This document shows positions 9,755 through 52,979 of a stretch of DNA of 64,000 nt, piece after piece. The stretch is taken from contig JABDFU010000004.1 of the NCBI GenBank assembly GCA_013286385.1, forward strand, positions 1 to 64,000. The letters are read 5' to 3'. The first letter of the stretch is position 1. The number at the start of each line of letters is the position of its first letter. The DNA is from Bacteroidota bacterium. GTDB lineage: Bacteria; Bacteroidota; Bacteroidia; JABDFU01. The notes under the pieces are model-generated. The model saw only the letters and a list, made by a program, of their open reading frames with translations, had not been told where the DNA came from and did no database searches. The translations under genes and the position numbers were made by a program.

Positions 9755-9905
9755 GTCGAGTAAGCAAGGGCATTTCAGCCCGAGCTTCTCACAGAACCGT
9801 ACGTGACAGTTGCCCGTCATACGGCTCTTGTTATCAAAATCCCTATTTGAATCCAGATTGCCAGTTATAGAACAGTGTCGGGGTTTGGGCTTGTATTGCA
9901 CGTAA
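9755..9905 (-). pseudogene. 5'-truncated group II intron remnant: maturase C-terminal tail plus domains V and VI
   Basis: Minus strand KYKINKGGAYRKLRAIQAQTPTLFYNWQSGFK* followed by GAGCCGTATGACGGGCAACTGTCACGTACGGTTCT (domain V-like, plus-strand 9793-9827) and a domain VI-like segment ending ...CTTACTCGAC. Confidence 0.75.
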
Positions 9906-13238: not shown

Positions 13239-13412
13239 TAAAAATTCAGAATCCAGCTATTACTGTACACTCCTGCTCCGAAATCCATCCGCCAAATTCC
13301 TCATTCCCTTAACCTGAGCCGAGTTATGCTCCCGAAAAAGTACAATCCTCCCAAATTCCTGCCCCCCTCCCAAATTTCCCCCTCTTTTCCTCCATACTTT
13401 CCCAAAAAATCC

Positions 13413-13453
13413 TATTTTTGCTGTCCCGACCTCAAAATCGGACGTTCTTTGAC
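13413..13453 (+). promoter_or_regulatory. Stable-RNA-type leader: TATTTTTG (-7 TAnnTTTG) and boxA-like GTTCTTTGAC
   Basis: Identical in all three repeat copies; same TATTTTTG lies upstream of tRNA-Asp at 52881. Confidence 0.55.
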
Positions 13454-13671
13454 CCAAACTTTCTTTTAATTTCTTTCAAACCTGCACCCCCATCAGCACA
13501 AAACTGGAGTGCTATAGCTGGAGTGCTGGAGTGCTATAGTCATGTAGCCAAATGCTGCCAAATGTGCCATTTTGCACGAAAACACAGCAACCAGGCTCCG
13601 AAGGATTTGAAGAAATCACAGTACCAAGAACCTCTGAACGCATTGATTAACAGCAAGTTCAGACAAAATAA

Positions 13672-13714
13672 GCGGAAGTAGCTCAGTTGGTAGAGCGTAA
13701 CCTTGCCAAGGTTA
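13672..13714 (+). pseudogene. tRNA-Gly(GCC) 5' fragment, interrupted after the anticodon arm
   Basis: GCGGAAGTAGCTCAGTTGGTAGAGCGTAACCTTGCCAAGGTTA, then unrelated sequence; GGTTAAGGTCGG resumes about 60 bp downstream. Confidence 0.8.
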
Positions 13715-13872
13715 GTCTCTGGAAAAGTGGCGTGCTGGGTCAAAGCCAATAAAATCAATAAGTTTACTGAATTAGGGTTAAGGTCGGAAAGGACTGGAGT
13801 GCTGTGCTGGCGTGCTGGCGGAGTGCTGAGGGGGCAGGAGTGGAGTGCTGAGTAATTTAAACAAACTCATAG

Positions 13873-15093: not shown

Positions 15094-16056
15094 CTACTTC
15101 TCTTTCCGCTTTATTTCCGCCTCAATCAGAGCACGGTCTTTGTTCAACTCTGCTTTCAGTTCCTTTTCGCTTGGCAGATAAAGTTTATACCGAGAAGAAA
15201 ACATTTGTTTGTTTTCCTTCAATACGGAATACTTAATCACGGACTCATTCTGCTCCGAACACAATATTAATCCTATGGTTGGATTATCGCCTGGCTGTTT
15301 AAATTTCTCCTCATACATCCGCACGTACATATCCATTTGTCCAACGTCTTGATGAGCAAGCTTGCCGACTTTTAAATCAATCAGAACAAAGCATTTCAGG
15401 ATATAGTTGTAGAATACCAGGTCAATGTAATAATGTTCAGTGTCCGCATCAATGTGTTGCTGACGGCTTACAAAGGAAAAGCCTTTGCCCAGCTCCAGCA
15501 GGAAGTGTTGTATGTTATTGAGCAGTGCCTGTTCCAGTTCGCTTTCATATAAATGCTCGCTTGGTTTTATCTGTAGGAATTCTAACACATACGGCTCTTT
15601 TATAAAATCGGTAATGTGCGGAGCAAGAGCCTTCGTTTTTTGTTTGGCTTCTTTTTGAACAGCTTTTTTGTTTTTACTGCTTAAAATTCGTTCGTAATAA
15701 AAACTGTTTATCTGCCTTTCTAAGCCACGTACACCCCAGTTCTGTTCCACGGCTTCTTTAATGTAGTAAGCCCGTGCGTCAGGATTTTCAACACGCATCA
15801 GCAATTTATATTGCGACCAGGATAATTCTCTCCACACCGTGGAGAGAATTTGAGCTTCCGAATCAGATTTACGGATGCGTGCATTTTTTCCTCTGGTTAA
15901 AACAGTCAAATTATCAACGGCTTCCTTGTTATTGGAAACTCTCCACACTGTAGAGAGAATTGGGAAGGTGTTGTAAAATTGTCGCATATTCCAAAGGCTC
16001 TGCACACTATAACCGCCTTTAAATTCCTTGTTCAATCTGTCTGATAAGTCCTGCAA
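15094..16056 (-). pseudogene. DUF1016/YhcG-family PDDEXK nuclease, apparently 5'-truncated
   Basis: LSWSQYKLLMRVENPDARAYYIKEAVEQNWGVRGLERQI...DLVFYNYILKCFVLIDLKVGKLAHQDVGQMDMYV; upstream in-frame codons give VNIGKKKAEYGKAVLQ but most of the expected N-terminus is absent. Confidence 0.7.
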
Positions 16057-18340: not shown

Positions 18341-18606
18341 ATTTTTTCAATGTTTCCCACCGTCATTTCCCAAAAAATCCTATTTTTGCTGTCCCGACCT
18401 CAAAATCGGACGTTCTTTGACCCCAATTTCTTTCAAACCCACAGCCCGTCAGCACAAAACTGGAGTGCTATAGCTGGAGTGCTATAGCCATGCTGCCAAA
18501 TGCTGCGAAATGTGCCATTTTGCACAAAAACACAGCACTACAGAAACGGTAGAAATTGAAGAAATCACAGTACCAATAACCTCTGAACTGATTGAATAGC
18601 GGACTA
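18341..18606 (+). repeat. Repeat element copy 2, truncated
   Basis: Shares the invariant core, CTGGAGTGCTATAG repeats, GTGCCATTTTGCAC hairpin and GAAATCACAGTACCAA block with copies 1 and 3. Confidence 0.85.
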
Positions 18607-19489: not shown

Positions 19490-19903
19490 TTAAAGAAGTC
19501 CTGTTCCCAATCCAATTGCAAGAAGTGTAATCATCACTGTGACTATCCATTGAACAAAGTCAATTGTGATTTTTTTTAGGAGCTTACTGCCTATGTATGC
19601 TCCTGCAAACGCAGAGCCAATTGCAGCCAATAGGATTTTTAAATTGTCCTGAATATTGATGTTGGACAAACGACTGAAATAAACGGAAAGTCTTGTGAGG
19701 TCAACTACACAGGCAATGAATATTCCTGTTGCGATGAAGCTTTCCTTCGTCAATCCGCAACGGAGAAGAAACATACTTCTCAATGCTCCTTGATTCCCTG
19801 ATAATCCGCCAAAAAAACCACTGATGAGACCACCAGCATATAATTTATTTTCGTCAAACTGAATTTTCTTTAAAGCAGGAACAGTTTCAAATAATGCAAA
19901 CAC
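19490..19903 (-). pseudogene. TauE/SafE-family permease, C-terminal half only
   Basis: FALFETVPALKKIQFDENKLYAGGLISGFFGGLSGNQGALRSMFLL matches the middle to C-terminal part of the family; N-terminal helices absent. Confidence 0.75.
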
Positions 19904-20971: not shown

Positions 20972-21002
20972 AATTATTGAGGTAAAATCCTGCCGACAAA
21001 AC

Positions 21003-21409
21003 ACACATTCCCTTAACCTGAGCCGAGTTATGCTCCCGAACATGGTACAATCCACCCCAAATCCCATCCCCTCCCAACTTTTCCCCCATTTTCCTCCATA
21101 CTTTCCCAAAAAATCCTATTTTTGCTGTCCCGACCTCAAAATCGGACGTTCTTTGACCATCATTTTCTTCTTTTTTTGAGCACCGCTGTAGTGCTATAGC
21201 TGGAGTGCTGTAGTGCTATAGCAATGCTGCCAAATGTGCCCAAATGTGCCCTTTTGCACGAAAACACAGCAACCAGGCTCCGAAGGATTTGAAGAAATCA
21301 CAGTACCAAGAACCTCTGAACGCATTGATTAACAGCAAGTTCAGACAAAATAAGCGGAAGTAGCTCAGTTGGTAGAGCGTAACCTTGCCAAGGTTAAGGT
21401 CGGCGGTTC
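21003..21409 (+). repeat. Repeat element copy 3, ending in broken tRNA-Gly
   Basis: Long identical blocks with 13299-13714. Confidence 0.9.
21354..21409 (+). pseudogene. tRNA-Gly(GCC), 5' portion intact, T-arm and 3' acceptor disrupted
   Basis: GCGGAAGTAGCTCAGTTGGTAGAGCGTAACCTTGCCAAGGTTAAGGTCGGCGGTTC then AGGATTCCTCTTTGAGTCCGGCTGAC; no CTTCCGC partner. Confidence 0.75.
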
Positions 21410-21552
21410 AGGATTCCTCTTTGAGTCCGGCTGACTTTACAATATCAAAAGAATCCTCCCCCTTCTACCCTCTTCAATATTACAGAAAGTGATTTTACAA
21501 AATCAATCCCACTTATTTACTACTTTTGGGCCTCTTAAAAAAAACAAAAAAC

Positions 21553-52905: not shown

Positions 52906-52979
52906 GGACTGGTAGTTCAGCTGGTTAGAATACGTGCCTGTCACGCACGGGGTCGCGGGTTCGAGTCCCGTCCAGTCCG
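52906..52979 (+). tRNA. tRNA-Asp (anticodon GTC)
   Basis: GGACTGG...CCTGTCACGCA...GGTTCGAGTCCCGTCCAGTCCG; 7-bp acceptor stem pairs. Confidence 0.95.

Follow-up and report, generated by a model that had tools for sequence, protein, structure and literature searches.

What is the 57-nt sequence that stands in three identical copies, dispersed within 8 kb and facing the same direction, on a contig of a Bacteroidota bacterium, and why are the copies identical? In the window, the 64,000-nt stretch of DNA analysed here, an exact match search places this core on the + strand at 13398–13454 (copy 1), 18366–18422 (copy 2) and 21102–21158 (copy 3), with 0 mismatches; shuffled sequences gave 0 matches, and 0 are expected by chance. 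A sequence-only reading of the window had singled out the unchanged core, measured at 56 rather than 57 nt, and took it for an rRNA or tRNA operon leader, constrained or recently copied. Starting from the 5′ side, the octamer TATTTTTG (13413–13420, 18381–18388 and 21117–21124) fits the −7 consensus TAnnTTTG in all three copies and, as that reading had it, also precedes tRNA-Asp (at 52906). In Flavobacterium psychrophilum, TAnnTTTG is the sigma-A −7 box, located at −12 to −5 (PMC9723704), a spacing that would put the start point of copy 1 near 13425. The octamer is followed by a CCGA-N8-TCGG hairpin (13426–13441 in copy 1); the short stem proposed earlier can form but is weak (−5.2 kcal/mol, z −0.40 against shuffles). 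Near the 3′ end of the core lies the boxA-like box GTTCTTTGAC (13444–13453, 18412–18421 and 21148–21157). Three window sites combine TAnnTTTG with GTTCTTT[AG]A 10–70 nt on, where first-order Markov shuffles give 0.075 on average.

The homology reaches well past the core in some directions and not in others, and the description of the flanks as divergent thus holds only in part. As direct repeats, copies 1 and 3 align throughout (13281–13714 and 20985–21396), with a second stretch of perfect identity, 124 nt long, at 13591–13714 of copy 1. Copy 1 (13281–13714) comprises an upstream region, the leader and a truncated tRNA-Gly, and copy 3 (20985–21409) comprises an upstream region, the leader and a damaged tRNA-Gly. 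Copy 2 (18366–18598) is homologous from the core to 18598 and consists of core, boxA and spacer, with neither the upstream part nor a tRNA.

The surroundings of the copies have features of their own. The 8–20 kb stretch of the window is lower in GC. A group II intron match lies at 9755–9829 on the − strand (Rfam, 65.7 bits). An ORF for a DUF1016/YhcG nuclease (15094–16056, − strand) is probably truncated, its N-terminal domain match beginning at model position 50, and another truncated gene, the ORF at 19490–19903 (− strand), matches only the C-terminal half of TauE/SafE. Units of GGAGTGCT, counted 10 times in the window against 1.1 expected, occur at 13506–13535 in the leader spacer and at 13796–13849 behind copy 1, by appearance a local expansion.

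The identity of the repeats is revealed by a fourth, diverged copy that a genome search located on another contig (G000:C55:6282–6493, hereafter C55), 87% identical to copy 1. C55 is an intact tRNA-Gly(GCC) gene, called by ARAGORN, with the box starting 207 nt ahead of the tRNA. Its parts follow one another as TATTTTTG promoter box, hairpin, GTTCTTTGACC, a spacer of ~200 nt, tRNA and terminator, the last being CCCTGCCCTTATAAGGCAGGGTTTTTTT, a typical terminator 3′ of the tRNA. Alignment of the window copies with C55 gives a common order of upstream region, TATTTTTG, hairpin, GTTCTTTGACC, spacer and a GAAGAAATMACAGTACCAA stretch, with GGAGTGCTATAG repeats and TTTTGCAC in the spacer; in copies 1 and 3, as in C55, tRNA-Gly comes after GAAGAAATMACAGTACCAA. 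The window repeats are homologous to an intact tRNA-Gly(GCC) gene together with its leader, which bears out the leader interpretation. The three cores are very probably the 5′ ends of duplicated, decayed copies of a boxA-led tRNA-Gly(GCC) transcription unit. The assembly has a genome completeness of 66%, and further intact copies may be absent from it.

The tRNA parts in the window are damaged, each in its own way. In copy 1, alignment with the intact C55 tRNA shows the 5′ part of tRNA-Gly(GCC) at 13672–13714, then an interruption of ~65 nt between GGTTA direct repeats, after which the tRNA resumes as GGTTAAGGTCGG and is then lost. The tRNA of copy 3 (21354–21422) is intact from its 5′ part into the T stem and replaced beyond, in the T arm and the 3′ strand of the acceptor (Rfam, ARAGORN), scoring 33 bits with the Rfam tRNA model compared with 69.6 for C55. 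In copy 2, homology stops at a position corresponding to 13649 in copy 1, leaving 22 nt to the point where the tRNA of copy 1 begins. ARAGORN called no tRNA in any window copy, and none holds a complete cloverleaf. A split tRNA was considered as well, and a search of the window for a separate 3′ half found none. Compared with C55, the tRNA parts in copies 1 and 3 agree at 40/40 positions, whereas the segments just upstream reach only 17/25 and 47/59 (68–80% identity), which suggests that selection acted on the tRNA parts until recently.

The signals around the leaders are incomplete too. Bacteroidota sigma-A promoters are expected to carry a −33 TTG ~17–23 nt from the −7 box. C55 has one at 22 nt, whereas the ~42 nt upstream of the −7 box contain none in any of the three window copies; in this the copies depart from a sigma-A promoter that they otherwise resemble in the shared TATTTTTG and in the presence of TAnnTTTG ahead of most tRNA units tested. 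A terminator scan found no + strand terminator beside any of the three. With the tRNA disrupted or absent and neither a −33 TTG nor a terminator present, the window copies are most likely pseudogenes. They resemble bacterial tRNA pseudogenes in having a truncated or disrupted tRNA-Gly, a retained upstream region and an intact paralogue in the genome, and differ from them in occurring as several dispersed copies with the leader better preserved than the tRNA.

Could the leaders be the functional part? All three copies have an intact −7 box, hairpin and boxA of identical sequence, and copy 2 retains leader and spacer without any tRNA, as would suit three active copies that make a small RNA in its own right, such as a boxA-bearing decoy, with the tRNA remnants incidental. 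We consider this very unlikely: the promoters lack −33 TTG and the copies lack terminators, Rfam at gathering score yields tRNA in copy 3 and C55 but no other family and leaves copies 1 and 2 without a match, the leader was found in only two genomes of the class, and the intact C55 copy leads to a tRNA. The suggestion that the core might transcribe a small RNA is thus unsupported, as the leaders head decayed tRNA-Gly. Less probable again is a version in which orphan leaders are still transcribed and were retained after tRNA loss as boxA-bearing decoy RNAs that bind NusB/S10. Alternatively, the leaders might now serve as promoters for neighbouring genes; copy 3 faces a prolyl oligopeptidase gene at 21526 with no terminator between them. 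However, the first genes 3′ of copies 1 and 2 are encoded on the opposite strand, so that this reading cannot explain the family, and with the −33 TTG lacking as well it is extremely improbable.

The resemblance of the box to an rRNA-leader boxA, noted from the window sequence, proved to be an exact match. GTTCTTTGAC is identical to the box in the 16S–23S spacer of three congeners (G001, G003 and G005), where a stable hairpin (z −2.2 to −4.5) precedes it and 23S rRNA follows; the comparison is with congeners, and no 16S rRNA gene is assembled in this genome. The 16S leaders of the same three congeners carry GTTCTTTGA. Within the genome itself, a tRNA-Thr-Tyr-Gly-Thr operon shows TAGATTTG, a strong hairpin and then GTTCTTTAA. 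The hairpin just 5′ of boxA is strong in the rRNA spacers and the tRNA-Thr operon, moderate in C55 and weak in the window copies. Among other GTTCTTTGAC sites in this genome and its congeners, the leader type is clear only for the rRNA spacers, the C55 unit, the window copies and a copy in G005.

Across 47 unit-leading tRNAs drawn from this genome and its relatives, TAnnTTTG lies within 250 nt upstream of 38, compared with 9 for the reversed motif, and GTTCTTT[AG]A precedes 5, all behind TAnnTTTG, compared with 0/47 for the reversed box. In Escherichia coli, boxA, which sits behind boxB, is described as both required and enough for the rRNA antitermination complex to assemble (PMC10250234). 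By analogy, the box described here may act through NusB/S10. No description of boxA in Bacteroidota tRNA leaders was found in the literature searched, a partial coverage that makes this absence weak evidence. The tRNA-Lys and tRNA-Gln genes of this genome (L106 and L121) have a hairpin-like inverted repeat directly behind TAnnTTTG and no boxA; an early hairpin may be common to stable-RNA starts in this genome.

As opposed to the tRNA, the core is perfectly preserved among the window copies, and its identity calls for a separate explanation. C55 matches the core at only 37/57 positions, with a hairpin region 12 nt longer, whereas immediately 3′ of boxA it agrees with copy 3 at 29/29. These mosaic blocks of identity among the copies point to gene conversion or recent duplication. 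An older layer is visible in the congener G005, which contains one decayed copy: its hairpin–boxA segment GTCCCGACCTCAAAATCGGCCGTTCTTTGACC keeps 31/32 bases in a match of 71% identity overall, pointing to an older constraint on this segment. Judging from these alignments, the identity of the cores probably reflects recent copying or gene conversion on top of the older hairpin–boxA constraint.

The G005 copy starts just behind the −7 box. Near it lies a 75-codon T9SS gene fragment with 71% protein identity to the gene adjoining the C55 unit, and between the fragment and the leader copy is a toxin pair that looks ParE/RelE-like by sequence. The G005 copy thus looks like the C55 locus after rearrangement. 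In this congener, a ParE/RelE-like toxin ORF (L079:1203–1592) runs into the leader remnant and gains a tail of ~30 residues. The position of the G005 start had raised the idea of an RNA-copied insertion, which was set aside given the T9SS sequence near both the G005 copy and the C55 unit, and given that copies 1 and 3 reach beyond the start point on its upstream side. The same start, together with the three dispersed, same-direction copies within 8 kb, could be taken to mean that the leader travels on a short mobile element propagating as a repeat. But the ends of the copies differ and the copies are mosaics, the genome has only four of them, viral contigs contained no leader copy, plasmid matches were confined to the tRNA part, and the T9SS fragment fits a rearranged old locus, which together leave a mobile element very improbable.

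The leader has a narrow distribution. A search of 389 genomes of the class recovered it only from this genome and G005, plus one weak match, to TTTCCC...TATTTTTG in G132, which has no tRNA nearby and was judged to be chance. In a pattern scan across 85,462 species genomes, a set that may lack the genome analysed here, the G005 contig was the sole match. In the congener G004, the same tRNA-Gly stands behind a short leader that lacks boxA, and most tRNA-Gly(GCC) genes fetched from relatives likewise have short leaders without boxA, so a boxA leader is not usual for tRNA-Gly(GCC), a point that, like the weak hairpin of the window copies, weighs against the proposed origin.

A working model follows from the C55 unit. 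RNA polymerase would start at the TTG-N22-TATTTTTG promoter, and the transcript would present first the hairpin and then the boxA-type signal GTTCTTTGAC, a type that in rRNA operons recruits NusB/S10 to make elongation processive; transcription would continue through the ~200-nt spacer and the tRNA and stop at the hairpin–T-run terminator. The window copies would have kept the −7 box, hairpin and boxA as probable pseudogenes, their identity presumably imposed by copying or gene conversion over the older hairpin–boxA constraint. Similar to the boxB–boxA leader of bacterial rRNA operons, which is read by the NusA/NusB/S10/NusG/SuhB antitermination complex, the unit has a hairpin, here of moderate strength, directly 5′ of a boxA-type sequence near a stable-RNA start, and its box is that of the congeners' 23S leader. 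Unlike the rRNA leader, it has a single tRNA-Gly downstream rather than rRNA, and the likeness is one of sequence.

The odd conserved repeat is thus explained as a set of decayed tRNA gene duplicates of an ordinary kind. More broadly, the promoter, hairpin and boxA-like box of rRNA operons, in that order, also head some Bacteroidota tRNA units, as the 5/47 pattern shows, a possible sign that the rRNA antitermination machinery also serves Bacteroidota tRNA operons.
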